Shown here: piece after piece, positions 35,477-58,145 of the stretch | Position numbering within the stretch: position 1 is the first letter of the stretch | Layout of the letters: each line of letters opens with the position of its first letter | Virus record (IMG/VR): IMGVR_UViG_3300023184_000035 | Location: 1 to 64,000 of that record | Direction: 5' to 3' (one strand) | From: a virus | Length of the DNA: 64,000 nt | Made by a program: the position numbers and the translations under genes | The notes under the pieces: model-generated | What the model saw: the letters and a program-made list of their open reading frames with translations, nothing else | Database searches by the model: none | What the model was told of the DNA's origin: nothing

Positions 35477-36685
35477 ATGAAATCATCTGACACGTTAGAC
35501 AACTGTAGTTTCTGCGGCAAACACAAAGACAGTGTGGCCAAACTCATAGTAGGTAATGAAGTCTCTATCTGCAACGAGTGTGTGGACTTGTGCCAGACCT
35601 TACTTGTAGAAGAACTGCCTGAGAAATCAAAAGAAATCACAGACGACACTTTGGATCCCAGAGCCATCAAAGATCACTTGGACAATTATGTGATTGGGCA
35701 GGATCATGCCAAAATGGTATTGAGTGTGGCCATTGCCAATCACTACAAACGCATAGCCAATGCTGATCCAGATGTGGAAATTGAAAAAGCCAACATCCTT
35801 ATGTTGGGGCCAACCGGCTCAGGTAAAACATTGTTGGCACGTACAGTGGCACGTTACTTGGATGTGCCATTTGTGATTGCAGATGCTACAAGTTTAACCG
35901 AAGCCGGCTACGTGGGCGACGATGTAGAGAGCCTGATCACAAGACTGTACACAGCAGCCGGCGGCGATGTGGCAAAAACTCAGCGCGGTATTGTGTTTGT
36001 GGACGAAATTGACAAGATCAGTCGGCGTAGCGAGAGTGCCAGTATCACTAGAGATGTGTCAGGCGAAGGTGTACAGCAAGCATTGTTGAAACTGGTGGAG
36101 GGCACCCGGTGCAGAATTACCCCACAAGGTGGTCGCAAGCACCCGCAAGGTGAAACTGTGGAAATTGACACAGCCAACATATTGTTTATTGCTGGCGGCG
36201 CATTTGTGGGACTAGACAGCATTGTCAAGAGTCGTGTTAAAGGCACCAGCATAGGATTCAATGCCAAGGTCAGTGTAGACACCGGTGCACACCTGGATCA
36301 AACCACACCTGAAGATCTAATCAAATTTGGCATGATACCTGAGTTTGTGGGACGTTTCCCCAGTTGGGTGGCCTTGAATGAGCTTACCAAACCGGACCTG
36401 ATACGTATACTTCAAGATGTCAAACACAGTTATGTCAGCCAGTATCAGTGGATATTCAAGCGAGATCAAGTTGAACTAAACTTTAGCCCAGACAGCCTAG
36501 ATCTCATTGCTGAACGCACTATTGCCAACAAAACTGGTGCCCGTGGGTTACACAGCGAACTAGAACGTGTGCTGTTGCCACACATGTACGACTTGGCTCG
36601 TTATCGCAAAGGCGGCATCCAGACCTTGAATATCAATACTGACCTGGTAAATAATCCTGAATCACTTCGGGAAATAAATGAATAA
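35477..36685 (+). CDS. clpX: ClpX, ATP-dependent unfoldase
   Basis: 402 residues, slightly shorter than host ClpX (about 420). N-terminal zinc domain with C10, C13, C32 and C35, which recognises substrates and adaptors. AAA+ module: Walker A GPTGSGKTLLART, pore loop AGYVGDDVESLI, Walker B GIVFVDEIDKISRR, and C-terminal KTGARGLHSELERV. The IGF loop that docks on ClpP is kept (GTSIGFNAKV), and no clpP is in the window, so it probably uses host ClpP. Overlaps rpsU by 8 bases. Confidence 0.95.
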   Translation: MKSSDTLDNCSFCGKHKDSVAKLIVGNEVSICNECVDLCQTLLVEELPEKSKEITDDTLDPRAIKDHLDNYVIGQDHAKMVLSVAIANHYKRIANADPDVEIEKANILMLGPTGSGKTLLARTVARYLDVPFVIADATSLTEAGYVGDDVESLITRLYTAAGGDVAKTQRGIVFVDEIDKISRRSESASITRDVSGEGVQQALLKLVEGTRCRITPQGGRKHPQGETVEIDTANILFIAGGAFVGLDSIVKSRVKGTSIGFNAKVSVDTGAHLDQTTPEDLIKFGMIPEFVGRFPSWVALNELTKPDLIRILQDVKHSYVSQYQWIFKRDQVELNFSPDSLDLIAERTIANKTGARGLHSELERVLLPHMYDLARYRKGGIQTLNINTDLVNNPESLREINE

Positions 36686-38634: not shown

Positions 38635-39093
38635 ATGACAAAAACTCTAACCCTTCGCACATTCGATATTCCCTCAATTCACAAATTTGGTATTGGTTTC
38701 GACAACCTGTTTGATGATCTCATGCGTGTGAATGCCCAACAAAGCAGCAACAACTATCCACCTTATGACATTGTGCAAATCAATGATGATGAGTACATGA
38801 TCAGTTTGGCTGTGGCTGGTTTTGGACCGGACAACCTAAGTATTACCAAGGACAAAAAATTCTTGATAATTGAAGGCCAGCACAGTCGTGAGACCGTGGA
38901 CAACGAAGATTCAACTGCAAAGTACTTGCACAAAGGCATCAGCGAACGAAGTTTCCGCAGGGAATTTCAACTGGCCGATCACGTGGAAATCAGCAATGCA
39001 CATCTTGAACTTGGTATCCTCAGTGTTCATCTAAAACGTGAAGTTCCTGAAGAAGTCAAACCAAAGACCATTGCGATCTCTTACAAAGAGTAA
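38635..39093 (+). CDS. hsp20: Small heat shock protein (Hsp20)
   Basis: 152 residues with one alpha-crystallin domain: YPPYDIVQINDDEYMISLAV at its start and LELGILSVHLKREVPE at its end (the conserved G-x-L). Holds unfolding proteins in solution for refolding. Common in T4-like aquatic phages. It has an AAAGGAG ribosome site and a promoter usable early and late, so it may be made through infection. A large inverted repeat follows. Confidence 0.92.
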   Translation: MTKTLTLRTFDIPSIHKFGIGFDNLFDDLMRVNAQQSSNNYPPYDIVQINDDEYMISLAVAGFGPDNLSITKDKKFLIIEGQHSRETVDNEDSTAKYLHKGISERSFRREFQLADHVEISNAHLELGILSVHLKREVPEEVKPKTIAISYKE

Positions 39094-39132: not shown

Positions 39133-39158
39133 ATTGTGTAACAATGCAAGGAATACAA

Positions 39159-39470
39159 ATGTCACAGAGCGATACCCGCACAAGAATCAAACCATCAGAA
39201 GCTGTGAAAGAGCCGCCTATGTTTAAAGTTATCTACTTGAATGATAATCAAACCACAATGGATTTTGTTGTAGACAGCCTGATTGAGTACTTTGATTACA
39301 CTGCTGAAACTGCTGAACAAATCACTGTAGATATTCATCAAGCAGGACAGGCCACTGTGGCGGTGTTACCTTATGAAATCGCCGAACAAAAAGGCATTGA
39401 AGTCACGCTGAGTGCAAGATCACAAAGCTATCCACTGCAAATCAAACTGGAACCTGAAACTGTAAATTAA
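39159..39470 (+). CDS. clpS: ClpS, N-degron adaptor
   Basis: 103 residues from the ATG at 39159, which has AAGGAA six bases upstream; the ATG at 39144 does not. ClpS binds proteins with N-end-rule residues and passes them to ClpAP. Core MFKVIYLNDNQTTMDFVVDS keeps the Asn-Asp pair of the binding pocket, and VDIHQAGQATVAV keeps the His that contacts the degron amine. No clpA is in the window, so it would act on host ClpAP. Overlaps the convergent gene by 4 bases. Confidence 0.88.
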   Translation: MSQSDTRTRIKPSEAVKEPPMFKVIYLNDNQTTMDFVVDSLIEYFDYTAETAEQITVDIHQAGQATVAVLPYEIAEQKGIEVTLSARSQSYPLQIKLEPETVN

Positions 39471-40255
39471 TCGTCTACAACAATGCGTAGCGGATGGTAC
39501 ACGTACTGACGCCACTCAGTATCACCCCGGCCCCTGCAGTTGTTGATAAAACGCACACCTTGACGTGCTTGGTCCACACTTCCGTGATAATGTCCAAAGC
39601 ACCAGGTGTGTATTTTCTTTTGTGTGTCTGCACTCAATGCTCGCATCATGAATCCATTGCCCATGGTGTTGAATCGCAGTGTGTCAGCAAGCCCAATGTC
39701 GTGTGCAATCAAACTTGAATTGGGTACTGTATGTGTCACACACACAATCTTTCGAACATCATTATGAGTTTGCAATCGTTTGATACTTGTGACCATGTAA
39801 GTGGCATCTGTTGTGGCCAGGCGCCCAGTGGTCTTGGCCACTTGCGCACTGACTTGGCATTGATTCTGGAACCACAGTGATGTTTGCTCTGCATCTATTG
39901 ACGGGTCAAGGTTGTAAGTCCACCAACCATTGGTGCCTACTATTGCAACCCCATCTACTACCACAACATTATCTTGCAAAAACACAACGTTGGGTATGCG
40001 CTTTATTCGATGTGCAAGATCAGCATAACTGGCATTCAAGTCATCATAGAAGTACCGGTGCTCATCATTGCCATCTACGTAAAACACTGCTTGATAACAA
40101 CTGCCAAGATGCCGCAACATGTCAATCACAGTGTCGCGATCTCGTGCAAGATCTCCTGCTACAACACAATATGGACTGGTGGCACGGCCAGACCAATCAA
40201 AATCAGGCCAAGTTTCTGAGTGAATATCAGAAATTAAATCAAATGCAAAACTCAT
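39467..40255 (-). CDS. Calcineurin-like metallophosphoesterase
   Basis: 262 residues. Metal ligands: DLISDIHSE, VAGDLARDR, DGNDEHRYF (in place of GNHE), VCVTHTVP and FGHYHGSVDQ. T4-like phages and bacteria carry such enzymes with varied phosphoesters as substrates. Not close to PlcP or to phage serine/threonine phosphatase by motif spacing. Substrate unknown. Confidence 0.8.
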   Translation of the reverse strand: MSFAFDLISDIHSETWPDFDWSGRATSPYCVVAGDLARDRDTVIDMLRHLGSCYQAVFYVDGNDEHRYFYDDLNASYADLAHRIKRIPNVVFLQDNVVVVDGVAIVGTNGWWTYNLDPSIDAEQTSLWFQNQCQVSAQVAKTTGRLATTDATYMVTSIKRLQTHNDVRKIVCVTHTVPNSSLIAHDIGLADTLRFNTMGNGFMMRALSADTQKKIHTWCFGHYHGSVDQARQGVRFINNCRGRGDTEWRQYVYHPLRIVVDD

Positions 40256-41255: not shown

Positions 41256-41263
41256 TATTTATT
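41256..41263 (-). promoter_or_regulatory. Late promoter box, AATAAATA
   Basis: Minus-strand box 18 bases before the gene starting at 41237. Confidence 0.4.
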
Positions 41264-41777
41264 GCGTTGGGTTAGAGAGACAGCTTCTTTGTACTTCATT
41301 TAACATCATATAACGTTCACGCTGTCCGTGATAAACGTTATAAATTACCTCGGCAATGTCCCGAGTGATCTGCATGAATTCTGGATTACAATGATGCGGG
41401 AATGTTTGTACGAATGTTTTCTTTGTGTGGTCCCAGTTATTATCTCGCATGATGAATGCGTAATGTGTGAGTTCGTGACCCAGGCCCCAATCTATCATCT
41501 CATAACCATAATGTTTCAGTGTTTCGGGAGAGATGATGATTTGCATATCATAGTCAGAATCATCTGGTATGGGAAATTGAAACATCATTCTTGCTCCGGC
41601 TGGCAGCGTTTCAACAGTAATCGGAGGCATGGGTAAATCTACAGGGGCGCCCACACGCTGTTTGATAAATTTCCACTCTAGTTCAATCACTGGCCAATCT
41701 AAATCCGATATTCCCGGTTGGACGTTGGCTATAGAGCTAGTTAGGCAGAATAGGAACGCCATTGCTATGTATTTCAT
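41259..41777 (-). CDS. Exported putative zinc metallopeptidase (HELTH)
   Basis: 172 residues from the Met at 41777, which gives a clean signal peptide (MKYIAMAFLFCLTSSIANVQ); the longer frame to 41810 would spoil it. WGLGHELTHYAFIMRDNNW holds an HExxH zinc site, with FPHHCNPEFMQITRDIAEV downstream offering a possible third ligand. Probably periplasmic. Cell-wall or protein cleavage during lysis or in superinfection control are possible; target unknown. Confidence 0.65.
   Translation of the reverse strand: MKYIAMAFLFCLTSSIANVQPGISDLDWPVIELEWKFIKQRVGAPVDLPMPPITVETLPAGARMMFQFPIPDDSDYDMQIIISPETLKHYGYEMIDWGLGHELTHYAFIMRDNNWDHTKKTFVQTFPHHCNPEFMQITRDIAEVIYNVYHGQRERYMMLNEVQRSCLSNPTQ
41727..41763 (-). 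repeat. 37-base direct repeat coding signal peptide (copy 2)
   Basis: Second copy of the repeat at 41187-41223, 540 bases away, one mismatch. Confidence 0.85.
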
Positions 41778-41796
41778 AGTGGCTTCTCCTGTTGCA

Positions 41797-41804
41797 TATT
41801 TATT
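41797..41804 (-). promoter_or_regulatory. Late promoter box, AATAAATA
   Basis: Minus-strand box 19 bases before the metallopeptidase start, overlapping the stop of the GT4 gene. Confidence 0.4.
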
Positions 41805-42801
41805 ACACAACAGGCACTAAATTATCCCTAAAAATTTCCCAAGCCCTGTCCCAGTTCCACCGCTGACTGCCATCAAATACCCGATGTCTGGGCAGGAACA
41901 AACAGTCAGTAACTGCTTGTTTTAACTGAGCATTGATACAGCCTGTTATACCTTCATCTATTACATCTAATGGACCTGTAGCAGGATACGCAGCTACCGG
42001 TGTGCCACAGGCCATGGCTTCGATCATCACAATGCCAAATGTCTCCCACTGGCTGGGAAACACAAACACATCTGCCAAATTGTAATAATATGCTAGATCA
42101 GCGCCAGTTTTGAATCCCACAAACTCCACGTCAGGATATCGAGACTCTAACTCTGCACGATATGGTCCATCCCCTACCATGATCTTGCGTGAGTTGGGGT
42201 AACTCATGCCGCAGAAATCATCCAGGTTTTTTTCTTTGCTGACTCTGCTGACACACACCAGCGTGGTCTTGGCATTGGGCAAGCGTTCTCTGGGATAGAA
42301 CACAGTGCGATCAACACCGCGTGTCCAGGAAATAATTTCTCCATCAAATCCATGTGCTTTTAATTCTCGAACCATGGTGTCAGTCGTGGTCAGCACCTTG
42401 CCTGAGTGTTTGTGGAACCAACGCACTAGAGGCCAAGTAACTGCTTCAGGGATGCCAAACAGTTTTCTAAGTCCTTCTGGAAACTTAGTATGATAAGCAG
42501 TATTGTACCTATAATGACGTTTGTCAAGATATTGTCTAACACGCAGACCAATAGGACCCTCGGTGGCGATGTGGATATGATCCGGACGGATCTCCTCAAG
42601 TATCGGGCCCAGGTTCCGCGGAAAGGCAATCTTGACTTCGTTGTAGCCAGGGCAATCAACATAGCGGAACCTCCGGGGATCAAGGTATACAACACGATAG
42701 TGATCCCGAATCGCACACGCCTCAATATTTTTGTAAGTGGTAACCACGCCATTGATCTGATCCGGTAAGTTATCTGTGACTATTAAGATTGTTTTTTGCA
42801 T
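41803..42801 (-). CDS. agt: GT4 glycosyltransferase, Agt-like (glycolipid synthesis)
   Basis: 332 residues, GT-B fold. N-terminal ILIVTDNLPDQINGVVTTYK and C-terminal WETFGIVMIEAMACGTPVAA with the E-x7-E motif of family GT4. Products of this type are often annotated as GDP-mannose-dependent mannosyltransferases. Placed directly after a PlcP-type gene on the same strand (33 bases apart), it matches the known plcP-agt pair, where Agt adds a sugar to diacylglycerol to make glycolipids that replace phospholipids under phosphate shortage. The family call is sure; the Agt role rests on context. Confidence 0.75.
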   Translation of the reverse strand: MQKTILIVTDNLPDQINGVVTTYKNIEACAIRDHYRVVYLDPRRFRYVDCPGYNEVKIAFPRNLGPILEEIRPDHIHIATEGPIGLRVRQYLDKRHYRYNTAYHTKFPEGLRKLFGIPEAVTWPLVRWFHKHSGKVLTTTDTMVRELKAHGFDGEIISWTRGVDRTVFYPRERLPNAKTTLVCVSRVSKEKNLDDFCGMSYPNSRKIMVGDGPYRAELESRYPDVEFVGFKTGADLAYYYNLADVFVFPSQWETFGIVMIEAMACGTPVAAYPATGPLDVIDEGITGCINAQLKQAVTDCLFLPRHRVFDGSQRWNWDRAWEIFRDNLVPVV

Positions 42802-42834
42802 TCGCCCGTTACCTTGAATGTTTTAAACTTTAAC

Positions 42835-43707
42835 TCATATCGCATGGTCGCCAGCACCTGTTCGCAACTGAGTTGATTTGGGAAAACTAATTCTATTCTT
42901 CCGGGTTGATCTTGCGGATTCGTTGTGTGTACTGCTATCAATATCATCAACCACATTGTCAGTCTCCTGTGTCCACGTTACAATTTCCCATGTGCCATCA
43001 TGCCGTTCTACCAAGGCAGTGCATGATTCTACCCAGTCGCCGTCGTTCATGTATACAACGCCATCTATATCTTTGATCTCTGCGTGATGTATGTGTCCGC
43101 AGATCACACCATCAAACCCACGCTTCTTGCAGTACTGTGCAAGATTGTGTTCAAAATGAAATATAAAGTCTACTGCTTTTTTGACCCGATGTTTAAGGAA
43201 CAGGCTAAGGCTAAAGTACCCAAAACCAAAATGATGACGAATCCAATTAATCCGAGTATTGAGTCCAAGAATGAAATCATATGCTTTGTCTCCCAACATT
43301 GCCAACCACGGCGCCAGTCTAGTGATGCCGTCAAACAGATCACCGTGTACCACAAGATAGTGCTTGCCGTCGGCACCTATGTGTTCAGTTTGATTTACCA
43401 ATTCAATTATGCCAAACCCAATGCCATATTGCATGAAGGGCCTTAGAAACTCGTCATGATTACCAGCCACATATACCACACGAGTACCACGTTTGCTATG
43501 ACCCAGCACACGGCGAATGACGTTGGTGTGACTTTGTTTCCAGCGCCATTTGTTTTGTTTGATTTTCCAAGCATCAATAATATCTCCCACAAGATATAGT
43601 GTTTCGCAAGTGTTGTGTTTGAGGAAGTTGTTGAGTTTGTCAGCCTGGCTGTCTTTAGTGCCAAGATGTACGTCGCTGATGAAAATGCTGCGATAAGTTT
43701 TTTGCAT
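42835..43707 (-). CDS. plcP: PlcP-type phospholipase (metallophosphoesterase)
   Basis: 290 residues. All metal motifs of the calcineurin/LpxH group are present: FISDVHLGTKDSQAD, YLVGDIIDAWKIK, VAGNHDEFLRP, VVHGDLFDGITR, ICGHIHHAEIK. The GDWVESCTALVERHDG end and the WLAMLGDKAYDFILGLNT helix are what I recall from PlcP of rhizobia and marine heterotrophs, which cuts phospholipid headgroups to leave diacylglycerol. The C-terminal 35 residues are an extra polar tail. An LpxH (UDP-diacylglucosamine hydrolase) reading is the alternative, but the agt neighbour and the Pho-type promoter favour PlcP. Confidence 0.8.
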   Translation of the reverse strand: MQKTYRSIFISDVHLGTKDSQADKLNNFLKHNTCETLYLVGDIIDAWKIKQNKWRWKQSHTNVIRRVLGHSKRGTRVVYVAGNHDEFLRPFMQYGIGFGIIELVNQTEHIGADGKHYLVVHGDLFDGITRLAPWLAMLGDKAYDFILGLNTRINWIRHHFGFGYFSLSLFLKHRVKKAVDFIFHFEHNLAQYCKKRGFDGVICGHIHHAEIKDIDGVVYMNDGDWVESCTALVERHDGTWEIVTWTQETDNVVDDIDSSTHNESARSTRKNRISFPKSTQLRTGAGDHAI

Positions 43708-43709
43708 AT

Positions 43710-43746
43710 ATTATTTAAATCTAGATGTGTTACAATAGCATTACAA
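43710..43746 (-). promoter_or_regulatory. Pho-box promoter for plcP-agt
   Basis: Minus strand: TTGTAAT, GCTA, TTGTAAC (43729-43746), nine bases, then TTTAAATAAT as -10 region (43710-43719). Two 7-base repeats with a 4-base gap replace the -35, as in PhoB-dependent promoters. Same layout as upstream of pstS. Confidence 0.72.
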
Positions 43747-43779
43747 ACTGGTATCACACAAATGTGTAATATATTGGCA

Positions 43780-43787
43780 CATAAATA
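43780..43787 (+). promoter_or_regulatory. Possible late promoter box, CATAAATA
   Basis: Late-type box ending four bases before the GTG at 43792. Confidence 0.35.
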
Positions 43788-43791
43788 CCCC

Positions 43792-44433
43792 GTGAAACCC
43801 ACCATAGCCCTTTTCATATACGATCCCAAATGCTCGGTGCAGAGCGGGAATGGGGTTATTCGGGCCTTGAGCCCACATTACAACATCAAGCTATTTTCAA
43901 AAAATCGTGTGGAAGATGTGTTCTTCAATGATGTAGACATGATTGTTGTGCCCGGCGGGTTTGGTGATGCAGATAGTTATGCCAGCCTGTTCAAAAACAA
44001 CGAAAAAAAAGTCAAAGATTTTGTTGCTGATGGGGGCAGATATCTGGGCATTTGCATGGGTGCATACTGGGCAGGCAGTCACTATCTTGATGTGTTGGAT
44101 AGTGTGGATGCAGTACAGTATTTGACACGCCCGGGCACAGACACACGCAGACCACATGCCAAGTCCATTAATGTGATGTGGCGGGGTCAGGCAGATCAGA
44201 TGTTTTGGTATGATGGGTGTGCGTTAGTTGGGGATTCAACAAAGTTTGAAACTGTGAGCACATACGCCAATGGTGATGCTATGGCCATCATACAGAACAG
44301 AATTGGCCTAATTGGCTGCCATCCCGAAGCAGACCGATTCTGGTACGACAGTTACTCATGGATGCGCCGACACTGGCGTGGCGGACATCACAACGTGCTG
44401 TTACAGTTTGCTGATGAGTTGATGACGAAGTAA
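43792..44433 (+). CDS. Class I amidotransferase-like protein (BPL_N type)
   Basis: 213 residues from GTG 43792 (VKPTIALFIYDPKCSVQSGN); an ATG at 43762 would add ten residues and is possible. VPGGFGDADSYASLF and GGRYLGICMGAYWAGSHYLD show the flavodoxin-like fold with the nucleophile cysteine elbow, and GLIGCHPEADRFWYDSY the His-containing part. This fits the family named for the N-terminus of biotin-protein ligase in fungi. It may hydrolyse an amide; substrate unknown. Overlaps the convergent methyltransferase by 33 bases. Confidence 0.65.
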   Translation: MKPTIALFIYDPKCSVQSGNGVIRALSPHYNIKLFSKNRVEDVFFNDVDMIVVPGGFGDADSYASLFKNNEKKVKDFVADGGRYLGICMGAYWAGSHYLDVLDSVDAVQYLTRPGTDTRRPHAKSINVMWRGQADQMFWYDGCALVGDSTKFETVSTYANGDAMAIIQNRIGLIGCHPEADRFWYDSYSWMRRHWRGGHHNVLLQFADELMTK

Positions 44434-45051
44434 TGTAACACCGTTTTCAAACGGAAAGTCCATGACTTGTATGTTGGGCTGTGTCTTTAGCTGATCAATG
44501 TAATCGCATACTGAATAATGGTACACTTGATCTGCACCGTAAATTCGGGAAGGATTTCTAGTCATGCTGTCATGGAACACCACAATGCTGTTGGTACTGA
44601 GTTGATCAACAAAGGCTTCATGATCGTACTGTGCTTGTTCAGCACTGTGATATCCGTCCACAAACAGTATGTCAATGTTGTGCAAATTGCGATACACATT
44701 GCTTTGCACAAACTCTTGAGTGGTTTTCTTGTGGTGTGTGATGTTGTTGGCATCGTAATGATCAAACCATTCACTCACACGTTCGGGCGACTGCCAGTGA
44801 TCATCCACCATGCCCGGATCCACAAAGTGTACTGTGCCGGCTTGGCCATTGTCCTGAATGCCACGGGCAAACATCATGGGCACAAACCCACGCCATGAGC
44901 CAATGCACACCACTGTGACCGGGCGGTACATACGTGCCAGTGCATAATACATCCAGCCCATACCCAAGTTCTTGTCCTCAGCACGTTGGCCATGCCCCAT
45001 GCTCATAAGTTCAGGATTGGCAACAATTTGTTCCAGCCAGGCGTTATTCAT
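44401..45051 (-). CDS. Class I SAM methyltransferase (Methyltransf_24-like)
   Basis: 216 residues. VVCIGSWRGFVPMMFARGIQ as motif I, GTVHFVDPGMVDD, DILFVDGYHSAEQAQYD and IVVFHDSMTRNP are the signature blocks, as in cephalosporin-hydroxylase-like and sugar-linked methyltransferases. Overlaps the ATP-grasp gene start-to-stop by 8 bases, so the two are co-expressed. Confidence 0.72.
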   Translation of the reverse strand: MNNAWLEQIVANPELMSMGHGQRAEDKNLGMGWMYYALARMYRPVTVVCIGSWRGFVPMMFARGIQDNGQAGTVHFVDPGMVDDHWQSPERVSEWFDHYDANNITHHKKTTQEFVQSNVYRNLHNIDILFVDGYHSAEQAQYDHEAFVDQLSTNSIVVFHDSMTRNPSRIYGADQVYHYSVCDYIDQLKTQPNIQVMDFPFENGVTLLRHQLISKL

Positions 45052-46810
45052 TTCTGTACACTTTCAAAGGTTTGATATTGGCACTGTGTGGTGCAACCCA
45101 GTTCACAACATCATCGGGGTTTTCTATTAGGATTTGATCAAACTGATCCAAGGGCAAGCCCAGTTCTGCAACTTCGGCCTTGGTCATAATGCACACAGCA
45201 GACTCGACTTGTTGGTCAAATATCACTGCTCTGGCTGCGGTAAAGCCATTGGCAAAAGGTCTGCTCATGCACTTGCTGTTGATCCAAATGCCTGTGCTGG
45301 CACTGAATGCATTGCTGCCAGTGATCGCAGCCAGTTCATGTGCCAAATGCAAGTCATCTTGGCCCCATGATTCAACTATGACCATGTGCATGGGCACACG
45401 CACACCAGTTTGAAAAATGTGATCCACTATCTGTGTGATGCCATGATTGTAACCCACTTGTGGCACAGCATTTACTTCGCAGATCAGTGCGCCAGTTTCC
45501 AGCCAGCTTTGTGTGATGTCTGGAATCAACAGGTCAATGCCGGCAATGTCCAAGTCCATGACACGGGCAGCACGTAAACACAGTTGTTGATTGTCGGGAT
45601 GTACTGTGCTTTTGTCAATGGCCTGTGTGACACCACCTGCACTGGCATTGTTGCGTCGGCGCAGTTGCAGTTGTTCACCTGCTGACGGCACAGTGTTCAA
45701 CGTGTGTGACTGTTGTGTGAGCATGCCCACAACTTCATCGTCCACAGTCAAGGGTGGCACAGCGGATCCTATCAAGATAAATGGTTCTCCACCTTCGGGA
45801 CGTTTGATGTATCGTGATGGTCCTTGTTGTGCGTCAATCAGTTGTTGCACTGTGCTGACACCATCTCCTGTGACAGTGGCCGACAGTTTCTTGGTCACTG
45901 TGATGATGTTTTGATCCACAATGGTGATTCTGTGTCCCACACCTTCAAAGTGTCGCTCTACCAGGAACTGTGGCACAATCTTTGTGACTTCTGTGTAGGC
46001 ATGTTGCAAGTCTGCCTCTGTGGTGATACCAGCATACACGCCCTGACCATTGTCACGGTCATAAGGTTTGATCACTACAGGATAACCATAGTGCTGGGCT
46101 GCTTTGACAGTTTGTTCCCAGGTTGACACCACTTGATGTTCACTGCCCGGTAACCCTGCTAGGTTCAACAATTCAGCAGTGGAAATTTTGTTCTTGGCAT
46201 ACAACACAGCCTGTGCTGATGTGCGGCCAGTCATGGTGCTGCTGATGCGCTGTGAGTATTTTCCAGTACCCACCATGTGTGTGCCCGGCCATATTTGATT
46301 CACGGGCATGGCACGTTTCATGCACAGGGTCAACAAGAAGCCTTGATTCTGTCCTGGTAATCCATAACGGTCAAGATTGCTGGAAGCCCAGGCCACCAAG
46401 GGTTCAATGTCATGCGGTGCCGGTTGTGAGTACAAGTCAACAATGTCATTGGCAAATTTAAATGCTGTGGCAGTGGCATCCGGATTGGTCACACTCACTG
46501 CCACACGAAAACACACTGCACCTGCAGCAGACTTTTCACGGGTCAACACTTGATAACGATTGGACACAACCACACGATTCATGCCTTGCACAAAACAAGC
46601 CAGACCAATGCCGCGATGCAGCAGTTGCAATTCAACGTCATCAGTGTCAATGTGACTGACAAATCCCAACACACGATCCAGGTCCGCATCCATTGTGTCT
46701 TGATCAAATTGATCGGGTCGTTGTACAATGATATCCAACACAGCCATAGGCCCAAGTATGCCCAGGGCACTGCCTTCACAGGCCGAATACACTGTGCCAA
46801 GTTCAAGCAT
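45044..46810 (-). CDS. ATP-grasp ligase, cyanophycin-synthetase-like
   Basis: 588 residues from the ATG at 46810, which has GGAGG six bases upstream; a longer frame to 47026 would run far into the upstream gene. Residues 1-200 resemble the N-terminal domain of cyanophycin synthetase. The ATP-grasp core shows YPVVIKPYDRDNGQGVYAGI, VERHFEGVGHRITIVD and ALICEVNAVPQVGYNHG (metal-binding E and N). The C-terminal Mur-ligase half of cyanophycin synthetase is cut down: SRPFANGFTAARAVIFDQQV remains but no Walker A is left. So it probably joins one amino acid or peptide bond, not the full polymer. Confidence 0.75.
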   Translation of the reverse strand: MLELGTVYSACEGSALGILGPMAVLDIIVQRPDQFDQDTMDADLDRVLGFVSHIDTDDVELQLLHRGIGLACFVQGMNRVVVSNRYQVLTREKSAAGAVCFRVAVSVTNPDATATAFKFANDIVDLYSQPAPHDIEPLVAWASSNLDRYGLPGQNQGFLLTLCMKRAMPVNQIWPGTHMVGTGKYSQRISSTMTGRTSAQAVLYAKNKISTAELLNLAGLPGSEHQVVSTWEQTVKAAQHYGYPVVIKPYDRDNGQGVYAGITTEADLQHAYTEVTKIVPQFLVERHFEGVGHRITIVDQNIITVTKKLSATVTGDGVSTVQQLIDAQQGPSRYIKRPEGGEPFILIGSAVPPLTVDDEVVGMLTQQSHTLNTVPSAGEQLQLRRRNNASAGGVTQAIDKSTVHPDNQQLCLRAARVMDLDIAGIDLLIPDITQSWLETGALICEVNAVPQVGYNHGITQIVDHIFQTGVRVPMHMVIVESWGQDDLHLAHELAAITGSNAFSASTGIWINSKCMSRPFANGFTAARAVIFDQQVESAVCIMTKAEVAELGLPLDQFDQILIENPDDVVNWVAPHSANIKPLKVYRNE

Positions 46811-47732
46811 CACCATCCTCCAGACGTTGTTCAAAGTAATCAACAAGATAGCGTTGTAATTCGGGTTGTGGCCTTGCCCAGTGCCAAGCACCGTTGTTGC
46901 CAACCACAATATCTGTGGCAGGATCAAATCCCAGTTGTTGTACAGGATCAAATCGATTCCAGTATCCGCGATTGGGTATTTCTCCGTGCCACAAATGATA
47001 TATGGTATGATCAATGTAACCCACACTGCCTTGCACAGTGGCGTAAAAAGAGTGGGCCCACTTCAAATAGTGTGCAAAATGTGCATCAGTCATGGGCACT
47101 GTGGTGGGTTGTCTTGCTAACTCACCATACGCCGCATGCAAGAACATTCGATCTCCTGCACCCACAATCATGGCGTCATACCACCCGTGTTGATCTATCA
47201 CATCTCTGCGTATGCACCAGGCCAAGCCCGGCATCACTGTGCGTCGAGGATGTCCCCAGGTGTACTGACTGCGTCGTTCTATGGCACCGATGCCATCAGA
47301 TTCAATCTTGGCAACAATGCTTTGTGCGTAATGCTCGTGACTGATTGAGATGTCGGTGTTGCCACGTTCAAGATCCACACTGCGAGAAAACAACTGCACC
47401 GCTTGGTATTGTTGAAGTTGTTGTTGCGCTTTTTCTACCCAGGAATCACTGTCAAACAACACATCACAATCAATCCAGGCCACGGCGTCACAGTCTGGCG
47501 GCAGGTGTTGCAGTGCAACGTTCAGCAGCCGTTCTTTTTGCCACAGCACAGCGCCACCATGCAGTTGTACCATGACATCGGCGTCGGTGGGCGCAAGTTC
47601 AAATTCTCCGTCAAAGCTGAGTTCCACAGTGATCAGTGGCACAGCCAGTTGTTTACGGAACCGTCGGTAATTGTTTAATTTGGTTTGATACCGGGCTGAA
47701 TTGAAATAGGTGGTGATTGCATACAAGTACAT
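46803..47732 (-). CDS. GT-A type glycosyltransferase
   Basis: 309 residues. YAITTYFNSARYQTKLNNYR at the start, AVAWIDCDVLFDSDSWV with the D-x-D metal site, and AYGELARQPTTVPMTDAHFA later. No signal peptide. Overlaps the ATP-grasp gene by 8 bases, forming one operon glycosyltransferase, ATP-grasp, methyltransferase. Sugar and acceptor unknown. Confidence 0.72.
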   Translation of the reverse strand: MYLYAITTYFNSARYQTKLNNYRRFRKQLAVPLITVELSFDGEFELAPTDADVMVQLHGGAVLWQKERLLNVALQHLPPDCDAVAWIDCDVLFDSDSWVEKAQQQLQQYQAVQLFSRSVDLERGNTDISISHEHYAQSIVAKIESDGIGAIERRSQYTWGHPRRTVMPGLAWCIRRDVIDQHGWYDAMIVGAGDRMFLHAAYGELARQPTTVPMTDAHFAHYLKWAHSFYATVQGSVGYIDHTIYHLWHGEIPNRGYWNRFDPVQQLGFDPATDIVVGNNGAWHWARPQPELQRYLVDYFEQRLEDGDA

Positions 47733-47768: not shown

Positions 47769-48476
47769 TTAATAGCCAAATCTTGTTTTGTATGTGGCGT
47801 ATAGGGATTGTACAGTGGTCAAGTCCAACACACCGTTGTAAACTTTGATGAAACCTATGTTGCCAGTTTGCACTTCACTGCCGGCTGATCTACTGAACAT
47901 TCGCAACTGATTGAAACCACCGCCGCCCGCATTGGTTGTAGAAAATGCCACAGCGGATGGCTGAGTGTTTGTTGCAGTGTACAGTTGTCCCAAACTGGTT
48001 GTGGTGTTCCAGGTGGCCCAACCAAAGTGCCATATCAGGTCAGCGCCAGACCCGGGCAAGTTCACTGACACGTTGGGATAGAATGTGTCAGGGTTGCCGT
48101 TGTACAAGCCCATGAGCCAATCTTTTGATGCTTCACTTTGAGTGTTCAACAATCTACCATTGGCCACGTTGGTTCTTTGATAGGCCATGAACACACTGTA
48201 ACTCTGGCTGGTAACGTAATTAGGACCTCCATACATGGTGTCTGTGGTTGAGGTGCCGGATCCAGTGAAAGTAAAAATTCCACCATTGGTGGCGCTCCAA
48301 CCCAGTCTACTGCCAGCATTGGCCACTGTGATGGTATAAGCACCTGTGCCAGCCACTGTGCTTCCTGTAGTAGGCACAGCCGCATAGTTGGCAGCATCTA
48401 GGTCATACACCAATGTGGGGGCAGATGACACTGCTGGCCTCCAGTTGCTGATAGCAGACTGCATGATACCACTCAT
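47769..48476 (-). CDS. Fibre tip or adhesin with lectin-like domain
   Basis: 235 residues from ATG 48476, in an ATGA overlap with the long fibre gene. VYDLDAANYAAVPTTGSTVA and GFIKVYNGVLDLTTVQSLYA are the ends of a LamG/concanavalin-type domain often found at fibre tips. Being coupled to the fibre gene, it is probably its receptor-binding partner. Confidence 0.7.
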   Translation of the reverse strand: MSGIMQSAISNWRPAVSSAPTLVYDLDAANYAAVPTTGSTVAGTGAYTITVANAGSRLGWSATNGGIFTFTGSGTSTTDTMYGGPNYVTSQSYSVFMAYQRTNVANGRLLNTQSEASKDWLMGLYNGNPDTFYPNVSVNLPGSGADLIWHFGWATWNTTTSLGQLYTATNTQPSAVAFSTTNAGGGGFNQLRMFSRSAGSEVQTGNIGFIKVYNGVLDLTTVQSLYATYKTRFGY

Positions 48477-51400
48477 CAAGTGACTCCTGTGCCGTTGATA
48501 AACCAAGTGTTGGTAGCCACTTTCATAATGGTGGCCATTCCGTATGTGCTGACAACTCTGTTGCCTGCGGTTGAGTTACCAGCAAAGTAAAGTGTTGTGC
48601 CTGCTTGTGTGACCACCAGCACATTGCCTGCTGCCTGCACTACTAGGCTGAGTGCTGTGCCCACAGGGAATGCCACGTTGGCATTGTCTGGTAAGGTCAG
48701 TGCTAAGTTGCCAGCTGTGGTTGAATAGTAGTGTTTGCCAGCATCGGTTAGTGCTGCTGTGGCATTGGCAGAAAAACTCACCTGTGGAATATCTCTGTAA
48801 CCAATGGCAAATCCAGCTGTGTTGCCTGAAATGTTACCTGTACCAGATATAATGCCTGTGCCAAACAGTATGTTGCCACCTGTTATATTGCCAGTGCCAC
48901 TCACAATGCCTGTGCCAAATAACACGTTGCCACCAGTGATGTTGCCTGTGCCACTCACGATGCCTGTGCCAAACAGTATGTTGCCACCAGTGATATTGCC
49001 TGTAGTTGACACAGTAGTTCCAGTTACATTGCCAACGTGTGTGCCAAGTATATTGCCACCTGAAATATTGGCAGTGGTGGTGATGTTGGCAGCACTGACC
49101 AGAGCACTAACAACATTACTAGATAAACTCAATCCAGCTGCATTCAAGTTGCCACCAGTGATATTGCCTGTAGTTGACACTGTTGTGCCAGTTACATTGC
49201 CCACATGCGTTCCAAGTATATTGCCACCTGAAATATTGGCAGTGGTGGTGATGTTGGCAGCACTGACCAGAGCACTTACAACATTACCACTGAGGCTCAA
49301 TCCTGCACCGTTCAGTGTATTGGCACTGGTGATGTTACCTAAGGCACTTATGGTGCCGCCAGTGATGCCTGGACCAACTCTGATGTCCAGGGCTATGACA
49401 TTGCCTGTGGTAGAAATATTACCACCTGTGTTGATATTACCACCTGTGACATTGCCTGTGGCCGAAACTGTGTTGGTGGACAACAGCACACCTGACACTG
49501 CAATGTTACCACCAGTGATATTGCCGGTGCCTGACACTGTGCCAGTAGCAAATGCCACATTACCATTGAATGTTGCACCATTCACATTGCCGCCGGTGCT
49601 GATCACACCCGATCCTGCCAATATGTTGCCACCTGTGATGTTGCCGGTAGTGCTTATGGGATTTGTGCCCAGCGCAGCCAAGTTGGCCACTACGTTGGCA
49701 TTGCCATAAGAACCTGTGATTCCTGTCAATTGACTACCATTACCCAGTATGTAACTGCCTGTGATGTTGCCAGCCACACTTATAGCATTGCCGTAAGTGA
49801 TTTCTTTTGAAGTGGCATTGTAGAACATCACATTGCCAATGTTGGCCACATCATTGCGCACCGGTGCCACAGTGAATGTGTTGGCAGTGGTCTGATTCAG
49901 GTTAGCGCCAGTGGCGTTCAGAATGATTGAGTTATTGCCTTGTGAGGTTGCACCAGCGTATGCACCAATAGCCACTGCTGCATTGCCTTGATTGGTATTG
50001 CCGGCATACACACCAATGGCCACTGCATTTGCGCTTTGCAAGTTAAAGCCAGCCTGGCTGCCAATGGCTATTGCTGAAAAACCTTGTGTGAATTGACCAG
50101 CACTGGCACCAATAGCTATAGCTTGATCAGATTGTGTAACTCCACCAGCTGTGTCGCCAATTCCTATCGAGTATCGACCTTGTGTATCATAACCAGCGGC
50201 TGCACCAACTGCCACAGAGTTATTGCCTTGTGTGGTCTTGCCAGCCCACCAACCAACTGCTACTGCAAAATTCTTTTGTGTAGTTGCACCAGCTTCTCGT
50301 CCAAATGCTACTGCATTGGCAACGGTGTTTGTAATTGTTGCACCGTTTGTGAGTGTGATCATGCCAGTGCTGATGTTGCCGCCGGTGATGTTGCCAGCCA
50401 CACTTATAGCATTACCATAAGTGACTTCTTTTGTGGTGGCATTGTAAAACATCACATTGGCAATATTGGCCACATCATTGCGCACTGGTGCCACAGTGAA
50501 TGTGTTGGCTGTGGTTTGATTTAAGGCCACACCTGTGGCGTTCAGAATGATTGAGTTATTGCCTTGTGAGGTTGCACCAGCGTATGCACCAATAGCCACT
50601 GCTGCATTGCCTTGTGAGGATTCGCCAGCTGACTCACCAACTGCTACTGCACTATTGCCTTGTGAGACATAACCAGCACTGGCTCCAACTGCCACTGCTG
50701 CATTGCCTTGTGCAGTATTGCCAGCATAAGATCCTATGGCCACTGCTATAGAACCTTGATTGGAAAATCCAGCCTGGGTACCAATTGCTATTGCATTGGC
50801 ACTTTGATTGGACGACCCAGAATCAGTGCCAATTGCCACGGCATTGATACCCTGATCTTGATAACCAGAATGATCGCCCACGGCCACTGCTGAGTTGCCT
50901 TGTAAATTTTGACCTGCAGCATAACCAATGGCCACAGCGGCAGTGCCTTGTGGCTGCCAGGCAGTCCATTCAGTGCCTGGGTCAGGAGTTCCGGTAATGG
51001 CCTGACTGAGGTCTAAAAATTCACCAGTCGGGTCAATGTTCACAACAAAAGTGTCATCCGGCACAAATTCGCCAGTTATGCGCTGTCCAATTCTGATGTC
51101 TGCGTTTGGAGAGATTGTTATCGCAGTGCCACTGCCGCTCTGGTATAGTATACCAAATGTGGTGCCTGCAGCACCAGCACTATCACCAATAGCCACTGCC
51201 GTGATGCCCTGGAAATTTTGACCAGCAGCATAACCAATGGCCACAGCGGCAGGTAGTTGATTGTAGAGCCCAGCCCAATAACCAACAGCCACAGAATTGG
51301 CACCTTGTGAGGTATTGCCGGACAGTTCACCAATGGCCACAGCCGACGAACCTTGTGCATACGAAGCTGCATTGGCACCAATTGCCACTGCTGATAATTG

Positions 51401-53185: not shown

Positions 53186-54337
53186 TCAGAAGCGGAACTG
53201 CATGCCAATCGCCACAGCGTGTTGGGCATACTTGCTGTCTGAGTATGTTGATCCGTCTGCATTGGGAATCCAACGATCATAGATTGTGAATGGTGAAACT
53301 GCACCACTAGCACGATCAGCTCTTACATAATCAATAAAGATTTCTGTACGCTTATCAAATGCGTAGGTAGCACCAACAGCAGCCATTTTCACATTGTCAA
53401 TACCGGCAGTGATTTTATCTGTCACACTGTAGTAACCACCGTTCAGGCTCACACGGTCCGAAACTTTGTACTTGGCACCAACAAACCATGTGTCTGCGTC
53501 TGTCTTACCATTTGCATAGCTTGAGCTAGAGTAGTATGTGGTCTGTGACGTTGGGTTACGTGTTTCTGCATAGCCTGCGTTTAGTGTCAATGCAGGAGTA
53601 ACAGCATATTTGGCAGCAACCAAGTCAATGTTTTCGCTGACTACTGTATTGCTCAAACGTGCTTCTTCGTGTGTGTATGCTAGATCCAATGGACCATCAG
53701 TGTAACGAACACCTGCGTTGTAGCTGGACTTGTAGCTGGTGTCACCCAATTGGTTGCCGGCTGCGTATGCATAATCAAACTTCAAACCACCAAAACTGGG
53801 TGATGTGTAACGAATCATGTTGTCAAATCTGCTAACACCTGAACCTGAGTAGAAACCAGCATAACGAGCTACTGATTTAGCACCACCAAAGTTCCAGTTA
53901 CCACGTGAGTCAAACTCATCAAGTACGTTGTACAAGAAGTTCTTGCCACGACCCAATTGTAATTGGCCGTATTCTTTGTTGCTTAGTGCCACGTTGGCTT
54001 CACGGTCAAACAATGTTGTGCCTGCTGAACCTGTTGCGCCAGAGTCTTTACCGGCTGCACCAGTACGTGCGCTGAAGTTACCTTCCATTTGGAAGCTGGC
54101 CTTGAAGCCGTCACCCAGGTCCTGTGAACCTTTGAAGCCAAAGCGATTGCTGTTGTGTAGTTGTTCACCTACACCTGAAAAGTCTTGATTGCTAGAACCA
54201 AAACCACTTCCACTGACTGCGCCAACACCAATAACACCATACAATTCTGTATTGCGAGCTGCGTCCTGTGCCTGTGCTGCGCTGGTAGCGATACCAACGG
54301 TCAACAATGCGGCTAGAACAATTTTTGTAAATTTCAT
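53186..54337 (-). CDS. Outer-membrane porin (Porin_4-like, betaproteobacterial)
   Basis: 383 residues, complete. Signal peptide MKFTKIVLAALLTVGIATSA ending AQAQDA; first strand ELYGVIGVGAV; LGDGFKASFQMEGNF and AGAAGKDSGA loops; REANVALSNKEYGQLQLGRG is the block typical of betaproteobacterial general porins; last strand ends HAVAIGMQFRF with the terminal Phe used by the BAM assembly machine. Own promoter, AGGAG site and terminator. A phage-made trimeric pore could raise solute (for example phosphate) entry or replace a receptor porin. Confidence 0.93.
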   Translation of the reverse strand: MKFTKIVLAALLTVGIATSAAQAQDAARNTELYGVIGVGAVSGSGFGSSNQDFSGVGEQLHNSNRFGFKGSQDLGDGFKASFQMEGNFSARTGAAGKDSGATGSAGTTLFDREANVALSNKEYGQLQLGRGKNFLYNVLDEFDSRGNWNFGGAKSVARYAGFYSGSGVSRFDNMIRYTSPSFGGLKFDYAYAAGNQLGDTSYKSSYNAGVRYTDGPLDLAYTHEEARLSNTVVSENIDLVAAKYAVTPALTLNAGYAETRNPTSQTTYYSSSSYANGKTDADTWFVGAKYKVSDRVSLNGGYYSVTDKITAGIDNVKMAAVGATYAFDKRTEIFIDYVRADRASGAVSPFTIYDRWIPNADGSTYSDSKYAQHAVAIGMQFRF

Positions 54338-54404: not shown

Positions 54405-55421
54405 TTATTTCTTGATCTGTGTCCAAACGTCACTGCGGATGCGATCCGTTAGTGATTTTGGCAATGGCACGTAATCAAGATCAGCAGCCATTTTACCACC
54501 ATTCACAAATGCCCAGTCAAAGAACTTGATGGTTTCTTGGCTGTTCTTTGCATTTTTTGGTTCACGGTACATCAACACAAATGTTGCGCCTGTGATGGGC
54601 CATGATTGTGCGCCCTTTTGATTTACCAAACTGATACCCATGCCTGGAACTGAGAACCAGTCTGCACCCTTGGCAGCTGACGCAAACGTTTCATCATCAG
54701 GTTCCACCCACTTGCCATCGCGATTTTGCAATTTAACATGGGTCATTTTGTTCTTTTTAGCATAAGCATATTCCACGTATCCAATTGAATTCTTCACACG
54801 ACTCACATTGGCTGCAACACCCTCGTTGCCCTTGCCACCCACACTACTGGTAGCAGGCCATTTGACAGCGGCACCCCGGCCAACTTCTTCTTTCCAAACG
54901 GCGCTGACTTCAGTCAAGTAGTCTGTGAAAATAAATGTTGTTCCTGACCCATCTGCACGATGCACCACTGTGATGTTGGCATCGGGCAATTTTACTTTGG
55001 GATTTAACTCTTGAATACGTCGGTCATTCCACATAACAATGTGACCAACAAATATCTTGGCCAAGACTTCACCAGTTAACTGTAACTCGCCAGGTTTAAC
55101 GCCTTCTACATTGATCACAGGAACAACACCGCCCAGCACTGTGGGGAATTGTACAAGTCCTGCGGCTGTTAAATCATCACCTTTAAGGGGTGCATCTGTT
55201 GCGCCAAAGTCCACTGTGGCTGCTTTGATTTGCTTGATACCACCTGAACTGCCAATGCTTTGATAGTTAAGTTCAATGCCAGCTTTTTCCTTGTATGCTT
55301 CTGACCACTTGCTATAAATGGGAAAGGGGAAGGTTGCGCCTGCCCCTGTGATTGTTTCTGAATTTGCCTGCGGGCTCATCAAATACAATGACGCCGCAAT
55401 TACTGCTAAGATTTTTTTCAT
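54405..55421 (-). CDS. pstS: PstS, periplasmic phosphate-binding protein
   Basis: 338 residues from the Met at 55421, which gives a clean signal peptide (MKKILAVIAASLYLMSPQAN); the frame continues to 55469 but lacks a ribosome site. The phosphate site blocks are GAGATFPFPIYSKW, QSIGSSGGIKQIKA, DFGATDAPLKGDDL and HRADGSGTTFIFTDYL. Captures phosphate for the host PstCAB transporter. Phage pstS is known in cyanophages. AAAGGAAC ribosome site, with a Pho-type promoter upstream. Confidence 0.95.
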   Translation of the reverse strand: MKKILAVIAASLYLMSPQANSETITGAGATFPFPIYSKWSEAYKEKAGIELNYQSIGSSGGIKQIKAATVDFGATDAPLKGDDLTAAGLVQFPTVLGGVVPVINVEGVKPGELQLTGEVLAKIFVGHIVMWNDRRIQELNPKVKLPDANITVVHRADGSGTTFIFTDYLTEVSAVWKEEVGRGAAVKWPATSSVGGKGNEGVAANVSRVKNSIGYVEYAYAKKNKMTHVKLQNRDGKWVEPDDETFASAAKGADWFSVPGMGISLVNQKGAQSWPITGATFVLMYREPKNAKNSQETIKFFDWAFVNGGKMAADLDYVPLPKSLTDRIRSDVWTQIKK

Positions 55422-55454: not shown

Positions 55455-55491
55455 ATTATTTAAACACAAAGATGTTACAGTAGTGTTACAG
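55455..55491 (-). promoter_or_regulatory. Pho-box promoter for pstS
   Basis: Minus strand: CTGTAAC, ACTA, CTGTAAC (55474-55491), nine bases, then TTTAAATAAT (55455-55464). Two perfect 7-base repeats, 4-base gap. Spacing to the -10 is identical to the plcP promoter. Confidence 0.8.
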
Positions 55492-56903: not shown

Positions 56904-58145
56904 ATGAAAAAAATTGGTTTTATTGGGATTGGCAAGTTGGGTCTCGATTGTGCAGAAGTCATGGCTGAGAAGCATGAAGTACGGGGTTACGATATTTACC
57001 CACGCTCTAGCGACTCAGTAAAAGTCTGTGGCATTGACGAGCTAGTGAACGAAAGCGAATGGATCTTTATTGCTGTGCCCACACCACATGCACCAGGCTA
57101 CGATGGATCAGTGCCCAGCAGCCACATGGAGCCTCGAGACTTTGGGCATGACGCTGTGATTGATGCTATTAAGAATGTGAACCGGTATGCAACCACACCC
57201 AAAAAGGTTGTGTTGATCAGTACTGTATTACCAGGTACCACACGCAAACACTTTTATCCATTACTGGATTCAAAACATCAGTTCCTGTACAACCCTTACT
57301 TGATTGCCATGGGCAGTGTGAAGTGGGATATGATTAATCCTGAAATGGTCATGATTGGAACAGAAGATGGCAACCCCAATGCCTTGGCAGGTGAACTAAT
57401 AGACCTGTACAAGACCATCATGGCGAACGATCCACGTTACGAAATTGGCACCTGGGACGAATGCGAAGCCATCAAGATCTTCTACAACACATTCATCTCT
57501 GCCAAAGTTGGCTTGGTCAACATGATTCAAGACTTTGCACTACGCATTGGCAACATCAATGTTGATGTAGTTACAGATGCTCTAGCACGTAGCACCATGC
57601 GTATCATGGGACCCAAGTACATGACAGCAGGCATGGGCGATGCAGGTGCATGTCATCCCAGAGACAACATTGCCCTGCGTTGGTTGGCCAAGGAATACAA
57701 CATTGGATATGACTTGTTTGACACTGTGATGCATGCACGTGAAGTGCAGGCCAAGAACTTGGCCATGTACTTGTTGGACCTGAGTGTGATGAACAACGAT
57801 ATGCCCATTGTGATCCATGGCAAAGCATACAAGCCTGATGTTGAGTATTGCATTGGATCTTACTCAACACTTGTGGGACACTACATTGAACAAGAAGGCC
57901 GTCAAGTTGTATACGTTGATCCCTTGGCAGATGATCCCACTAATGTTGTGGCCACTGTGGACACTCCGGCAATCTTTTTGTGGGCACACAACCGCAAAAT
58001 CACATACGAATACACAGGTGATCAATTGGACACACTGCCCTACTGCAACATCATGTCAGGCAGTATCATTGTTGATCCATGGCGCAAACTAACATCAACT
58101 CCCGAGGTCGAAGTTGTCCACTACGGTAACACCCGAGTTCATTAA
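56904..58145 (+). CDS. UDP-glucose/GDP-mannose dehydrogenase-like enzyme
   Basis: 413 residues. NAD loop IGFIGIGKLGLD, VPTPHAPGYDGSVP, catalytic cysteine in GDAGACHPRDNIALRWLA, and the C-terminal VIHGKAYKPDVEYCIGSYS half. These enzymes oxidise a nucleotide sugar twice to the uronic acid, used in capsule or glycan building. AAAGGA ribosome site. Overlaps the oxygenase gene by 32 bases. Confidence 0.85.
   Translation: MKKIGFIGIGKLGLDCAEVMAEKHEVRGYDIYPRSSDSVKVCGIDELVNESEWIFIAVPTPHAPGYDGSVPSSHMEPRDFGHDAVIDAIKNVNRYATTPKKVVLISTVLPGTTRKHFYPLLDSKHQFLYNPYLIAMGSVKWDMINPEMVMIGTEDGNPNALAGELIDLYKTIMANDPRYEIGTWDECEAIKIFYNTFISAKVGLVNMIQDFALRIGNINVDVVTDALARSTMRIMGPKYMTAGMGDAGACHPRDNIALRWLAKEYNIGYDLFDTVMHAREVQAKNLAMYLLDLSVMNNDMPIVIHGKAYKPDVEYCIGSYSTLVGHYIEQEGRQVVYVDPLADDPTNVVATVDTPAIFLWAHNRKITYEYTGDQLDTLPYCNIMSGSIIVDPWRKLTSTPEVEVVHYGNTRVH

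Follow-up and report, generated by a model that had tools for sequence, protein, structure and literature searches.

We describe a phage-borne gene pair, plcP-agt, that likely forms a membrane lipid-remodelling operon under phosphate control, and the membrane of the infected cell is probably remodelled to save or free phosphorus. The pair lies in the 148,133-base record of a freshwater virus from IMG/VR, whose first 64 kb are the window analysed here and whose phage genes include those for ribonucleotide reductase, primase, DNA ligase, endolysin, and head and baseplate proteins. The two genes are:

42835..43707, minus strand: plcP, 290 amino acids, a calcineurin-type metallophosphoesterase and predicted phospholipase C that would take phosphorylated headgroups off to leave diacylglycerol
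41803..42801, minus strand: agt, 332 amino acids, a GT4 glycosyltransferase predicted to glycosylate diacylglycerol

Both open reading frames are real genes, and they stand where the preliminary description had placed its PlcP-type and Agt-type proteins. The agt gene lies downstream of plcP after a gap of 33 bases. Pfam matches are Metallophos (9e-11) for the plcP product and Glycos_transf_1 (8e-23) and Glyco_transf_4 (4e-12) for the agt product. Comparison with relatives of 86–96% amino-acid identity gave dN/dS values of about 0.04–0.11 for the two genes (the gt4 comparison of the window with locus L005 was discarded as likely misaligned), which argues that both are maintained proteins; relatives of both are also encoded on hundreds of viral contigs. 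A DNA-level search of phage records with this stretch returned no matches, nor did a PADLOC search for defence systems. An open reading frame that shares 8 bases with the end of agt (41259–41810, minus strand) has a signal-peptide-like start and a HELTH zinc-protease-like motif and gave no family matches.

By sequence, the first gene is of the PlcP type, and its product is predicted to act as a phospholipase C on phosphatidylglycerol and phosphatidylethanolamine. It is 55% identical to the Pseudomonas aeruginosa PlcP and 49% identical to that of Sinorhizobium meliloti, two enzymes for which lipid remodelling is documented in the literature. We take locus L246, recognised via its neighbours cyaB and azoR3, to be the P. 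aeruginosa PA3219-PA3218 cluster, and locus L245, which lies beside a sinI/sinR-like pair, is presumably the S. meliloti SMc00171 orthologue. The record that holds L245 (CP090106.1) is a 3.7-Mb S. meliloti entry labelled 'plasmid pSymB' that, with this pair by plcP, looks like a mislabelled chromosome. On the tree, the window protein clusters with characterised members of the PlcP family and the phage proteins lie among those of bacteria, within a 99/99 set that takes in the P. aeruginosa enzyme, whereas LpxH forms a separate 100/100 group. LpxH and PlcP are also encoded by two separate genes within the same genomes. All of the calcineurin metal-ligand motifs (DxH, GD, GNHD, H and GHxH) are present in the window protein, and the ligands D12/H14, D42, N83/H84, H121 and H205/H207 are invariant in the alignment.

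The second gene encodes a glycosyltransferase that, from its similarities, is an Agt-type GT4 enzyme, predicted to glycosylate diacylglycerol with glucose or glucuronic acid as the candidate sugar. In all 18 whole bacterial genomes searched, the best match of the window protein is the glycosyltransferase directly downstream of plcP (38–46% identity, 220–285 bits; matches were paired with plcP loci by position, by hand). Three further full-length Agt-like matches score 208–237 bits, and every other GT4 protein in these genomes scores at most 128 bits. The match to P. aeruginosa Agt1 is full-length (38% identity, 329 amino acids, 220 bits), and a glycosyltransferase of the Agt kind adjoins the plcP relative at about 62 of the 80 bacterial loci that contain one. 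Functional residues have been reported for GTcp, the SAR11 enzyme (G16, G82, G85, H104, T162, R163, R190, K195, D256, T257, F258, G259, E264 and W320; PMC8231724). When mapped via conserved motifs, with no direct GTcp alignment, 13 of these 14 are kept in the window protein, including the diacylglycerol-site residues H104, T162, R163 and W320, and D256 is replaced by Glu. A D256E change in the catalytic pocket of GTcp costs the enzyme more than 90% of its activity (PMC8231724). Glu nevertheless occupies this position in 102 of 117 viral copies, in MshA and in six bacterial matches, which include plcP-linked genes from Limnohabitans and Comamonadaceae. The structure model (pLDDT 84) has a GT-B fold near BshA, MshA and PimB', which is consistent with the assignment and not discriminating. 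A GT4 tree with WaaG, WaaB, WcaC and WcaI as outgroup was uninformative for rooting, since the outgroup branches are extremely long and make the root unreliable.

That the first gene is instead a true LpxH acting on lipid A is exceedingly improbable. Relatives are named 'UDP-2,3-diacylglucosamine diphosphatase' in databases, and LpxH is the nearest solved fold to the structure model (pLDDT 72), though with low TM-scores, a result consistent with the PlcP assignment and not discriminating. However, the LpxH models TIGR01854 and NF003743 score 36.6 and 45.9 bits against cut-offs of 190.35 and 134, LpxH is at most 26% identical over about 120 residues and stands apart on the tree, and the Arg of the LpxH motif GNRD is His in the GNHDE of the window protein; an LpxH identity for 42835–43707 was rejected on these grounds. 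An O-antigen or lipopolysaccharide glycosyltransferase identity for the second protein was likewise rejected by similarity, as WaaG, WaaB, WcaC and WcaI score at most 33 bits against the 220 of Agt1. We also think it very unlikely that the GT4 protein is a surface-glycan or DNA-modifying glycosyltransferase that sits by plcP through chance. Its fold is generic and the window holds other glycan-type genes (the nucleotide-sugar gene ugd and open reading frames 46803–47732 and 55698–56975), but the full-length identity to bacterial plcP-linked enzymes, their rank as best match in every genome, the diacylglycerol-site residues kept in the motif alignment and the conserved adjacency to plcP all speak against it. 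The preliminary description had offered placement with LpxH or with O-antigen enzymes as the outcome that would contradict its lipid-remodelling reading. Neither was found: the first protein falls outside the 100/100 LpxH branch, and the second aligns at full length with plcP-linked Agt and not with lipopolysaccharide or colanic-acid enzymes. The PlcP-Agt reading is thus supported, and pstS, porins and a Pho-box-like operator add to that support.

Relatives of PlcP were identified in at least 598 IMG/VR stretches and relatives of the GT4 protein in at least 466. Of 101 non-redundant viral loci with enough flank, 99 have a glycosyltransferase behind plcP, directly in 95 and one gene on in 4: the next gene is GT4 in 72 and GT2 in 23, GT4 follows one gene later in 4, and neither is found in 2. 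Viral loci fetched by plcP alone, with no GT4 selection, comprise 37 with GT4, 34 with GT2, 2 with none and 7 that are too short. The GT2 protein (about 238 amino acids) is unrelated to GT4 and replaces it behind plcP, at similar spacing, in sister phages (L015, L016, L024, L044, L047, L050, L059, L076–L079 and other loci). Such an exchange of glycosyltransferases behind one phospholipase is what a diacylglycerol-consuming pathway would predict, and bacterial plcP loci also pair with differing glycosyltransferases (PMC4796936). Among 50,697 annotated phage records, 5 contain a PlcP relative and none contains both genes together. Two records labelled as phage are probably bacterial: MT836169.1 (human-gut phage) carries plcP and, after a Pho-box-like repeat at 5727, an apparent polyphosphate kinase, and CAKLQH020000017.1 (Acinetobacter phage) carries prc, ndk, iscX and other bacterial genes.

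A Pho-box-like repeat is common to the phage plcP and pstS genes, which is new here. The sites in the window are:

43729..43745, minus strand: Pho-box-like direct repeat TGTAATGCTATTGTAAC, 21 bases before the plcP start codon
43712..43719, minus strand: -10-like box TTTAAATA of the plcP promoter, whose TAAATA begins 11 bases after the direct repeat
55474..55490, minus strand: Pho-box-like direct repeat TGTAACACTACTGTAAC, before pstS
55457..55464, minus strand: TTTAAATA at pstS, after TGTAACACTACTGTAAC, with spacing equal to that at plcP

Direct repeats spaced by 11 bases before a -10 box are the layout of a PhoB box, and from this resemblance we infer PhoB binding, with plcP apparently wired to phosphate starvation. 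In the 64-kb window, the strict pattern TGTMAY-N5-TGTMAY has three occurrences against 0.47 expected (a count of three is reached in 3 of 100 shuffles), and the sites before plcP and pstS account for two of them. Upstream of viral plcP, the repeat was found in 44 of 89 non-redundant sequences against 0.02 expected from shuffled sequence; its orientation invariably matches that of the gene, and it nearly always begins 37–59 bases before the start. A total of 95 unique sites lie in 1.88 Mb of viral sequence, and 81 of them stand before plcP (55) or pstS (26); another 5 stand before other open reading frames and 9 have no associated gene. The plcP count is inflated because selection of the viral loci rested on plcP or its GT4 partner and viral plcP upstreams also supplied the pattern itself; the pstS count provides an independent test of the pattern, pstS being unrelated to plcP. 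A scan of the window with the Escherichia coli consensus CTGTCAT-N4-CTGTCAT yielded no significant match. Viral upstream matches have the form TGTAAY, which then gave a clear signal. The 11-base-spaced repeat also stands, in the TGTCA form, before two pstS genes of host-type Comamonadaceae and two plcP genes of bacteria. The phage motif is rich in TGTAA, unlike these two host pstS boxes; some viral copies also read TGTCA. Control of cyanophage genes by host PhoB is established, and the same work cautions against relying on predicted Pho boxes (PMC10976474).

Further phosphate-related and membrane-related genes lie in the window:

54405..55421, minus strand: pstS (NF008171, 419 bits, cut-off 339); the open reading frame opens at 55469 and the ATG at 55421 was taken as the start
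53186..54337, minus strand: Gram-negative porin (Porin_4, 4.6e-37), directly downstream of pstS
56904..58145, plus strand: nucleotide-sugar dehydrogenase (ugd), probably a UDP-glucose 6-dehydrogenase, with a putative place in the system
39467..40255, minus strand: second metallophosphoesterase (phrog_1649, 1.6e-23), kept near plcP-agt in close relatives

Of 163 viral loci (a redundant set of at most about 13 kb each), 42 carry pstS, 35 a DesA-type desaturase and 13 a phosphate porin of the OprO/P type. The phosphate porin accompanies pstS in other relatives, and the closest relatives, L003 and L006, hold ugd-o425-pstS-porin-GATase-plcP-agt within about 8 kb. A DesA-family fatty-acid desaturase near phage plcP is seen at L050:8246–8950 (400 bits, curated cut-off 400) and also in L023, L039, L102 and L134. 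The catalytic Cys and Asp of the ugd product are apparently kept (GACHPRD). This enzyme is a possible source of UDP-glucuronate for Agt, and its presence suggests glucuronosyl-diacylglycerol as the Agt product. The second metallophosphoesterase could, more speculatively, act on released headgroup phosphates.

Other neighbours include an amidotransferase/biotin-ligase-N-like protein divergent from plcP (43615–44433, plus strand), with relatives near plcP in 69 of the 163 viral loci, and an ATP-grasp protein (45044–47026, minus strand) that resembles the first part of cyanophycin synthetase at 260 bits, under the curated cut-off. A ClpX-like ATPase (35477–36685), a small heat-shock protein (38635–39093) and a ClpS-like adaptor (39144–39470), all on the plus strand, form a phage protein-turnover set in one stretch. 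A 1479-residue open reading frame (48476–52915, minus strand) has no Pfam match.

The window PstS is closest to Burkholderiales proteins, at 60–64% identity in Limnohabitans and other Comamonadaceae or Burkholderiaceae genomes, and the Glu at the GTcp Asp256 position of Agt is common to Comamonadaceae. The host is likely a freshwater Comamonadaceae-like bacterium.

These elements suggest the following sequence of events. In a phosphate-starved host, active PhoB would bind the repeats upstream of the phage plcP and pstS genes and turn both on. PlcP, by analogy with characterised homologues, would cut the headgroups from phosphatidylglycerol and phosphatidylethanolamine, and Agt would use a UDP-sugar to attach glucose or glucuronic acid to the resulting diacylglycerol, such that a phosphorus-free lipid takes the place of a phospholipid. 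Headgroup phosphate, PstS/porin uptake and lower membrane demand for phosphorus could then all contribute to nucleotides for phage DNA. The enzymology has precedent in bacteria: work with mutants and expression established glycolipid synthesis by the PlcP and Agt1 of P. aeruginosa during phosphate stress (PMC8528852), and the Phaeobacter and SAR11 PlcPs and SAR11 Agt (PMC4796936), including the Agt-type GTcp (PMC8231724), act in this lipid pathway.

The preliminary description had proposed that the membrane becomes a phosphate store for DNA synthesis. The predicted lipid pathway behind that proposal is supported; the store may be modest. Phaeobacter holds 0.54 million phospholipid phosphorus atoms per cell, a number halved on starvation (PMC4796936), and one 148-kb genome contains 2 × 148,133 = 296,266, so the phosphorus released is about that of a single genome. 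This suggests that phospholipid alone pays for few genomes, though larger cells would pay for more. A further phosphatase is also needed because PlcP leaves the phosphorus on the headgroup. Lower demand for new phospholipid, or a change of the envelope, may matter as much as phosphorus release.

Both the proposed control and the proposed purpose have alternatives. The repeat might bind an activator that the phage encodes, or mark a phage promoter class, in which case the lipid pathway would be phage-timed rather than phosphate-controlled. This fits the TAAATA at fixed spacing behind the repeat, which resembles T4-type late promoters, and the TGTAA in place of TGTCA. We nonetheless consider it a somewhat doubtful alternative, given that the strict pattern is so rare in the window and lies almost only before plcP and pstS in the 1.88 Mb of viral DNA, that some viral copies have TGTCA and that the same spaced repeat occurs at host pstS and bacterial plcP genes. 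It is less probable still that the glycolipid serves mainly to change the envelope, blocking later phages or keeping membrane properties, with phosphate saving secondary. The desaturase near plcP in many relatives and the modest phosphate yield favour such a role, and a Ruegeria study links phage attachment to bacterial lipid composition (PMC9938194). Against it, plcP and pstS have an operator in common and phosphate porins accompany both genes, which points to phosphorus. Returning to lipid remodelling under phosphate control, we regard as evenly balanced the fuller proposal that, in many lake phages, host-PhoB-controlled PlcP, interchangeable GT4 and GT2 enzymes, UDP-glucuronate fed by ugd (in this lineage), PstS, porin and desaturase make up a full phosphorus-scavenging and membrane-rebuilding regulon.

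Phage phosphorus genes have so far mostly concerned phosphate uptake or release (pstS, phoA, phoH), and the present locus would extend those under host Pho control to membrane lipid replacement. The preliminary description knew of no established phage system of this kind; we found no phage plcP-agt pair in the annotated phage records and no description of plcP or agt in phages in the open-licence literature, an absence that is not proof. In virome surveys 'lpxH' appears among the viral genes for lipopolysaccharide (PMC10653327; PMC9611531), and some of these genes are probably plcP because database names call such PlcPs LpxH. If our reading is right, the rewriting of host lipids through a switch that responds to phosphate starvation would give phages a new means of funding replication, lipid changes in waters poor in phosphorus would be partly attributable to viral infection, and virome gene lists would be misnaming plcP as lipopolysaccharide synthesis.

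Among the closest known systems, the proteobacterial PlcP-Agt systems of S. meliloti, SAR11 and P. aeruginosa (PA3219-PA3218) have the same protein families, plcP-then-agt order, Pho-box-type operator and predicted products. The pair described here differs in being phage-encoded, hence for use during infection, in an Agt that is 36–46% identical and has Glu for GTcp Asp256, and in the GT2 partner of sister phages. Pelagibacter phage Mosig EXVC030M encodes a PlcP homologue (47% identical) divergent from a PstS-type gene, but a GT4 partner was searched for and not found, and none is annotated beside plcP; this plcP is labelled UDP-2,3-diacylglucosamine hydrolase, and the gene is absent from the discussion in the phage's paper. 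Cyanophage phosphate genes (for example pstS, under host PhoBR) are likewise carried by a phage and have a Pho-box operator (PMC10976474). In those phages phosphate is taken up, whereas here membrane lipid is predicted to be recycled, in a host that is probably not cyanobacterial and from a TGTAAY repeat rather than the cyanobacterial box.
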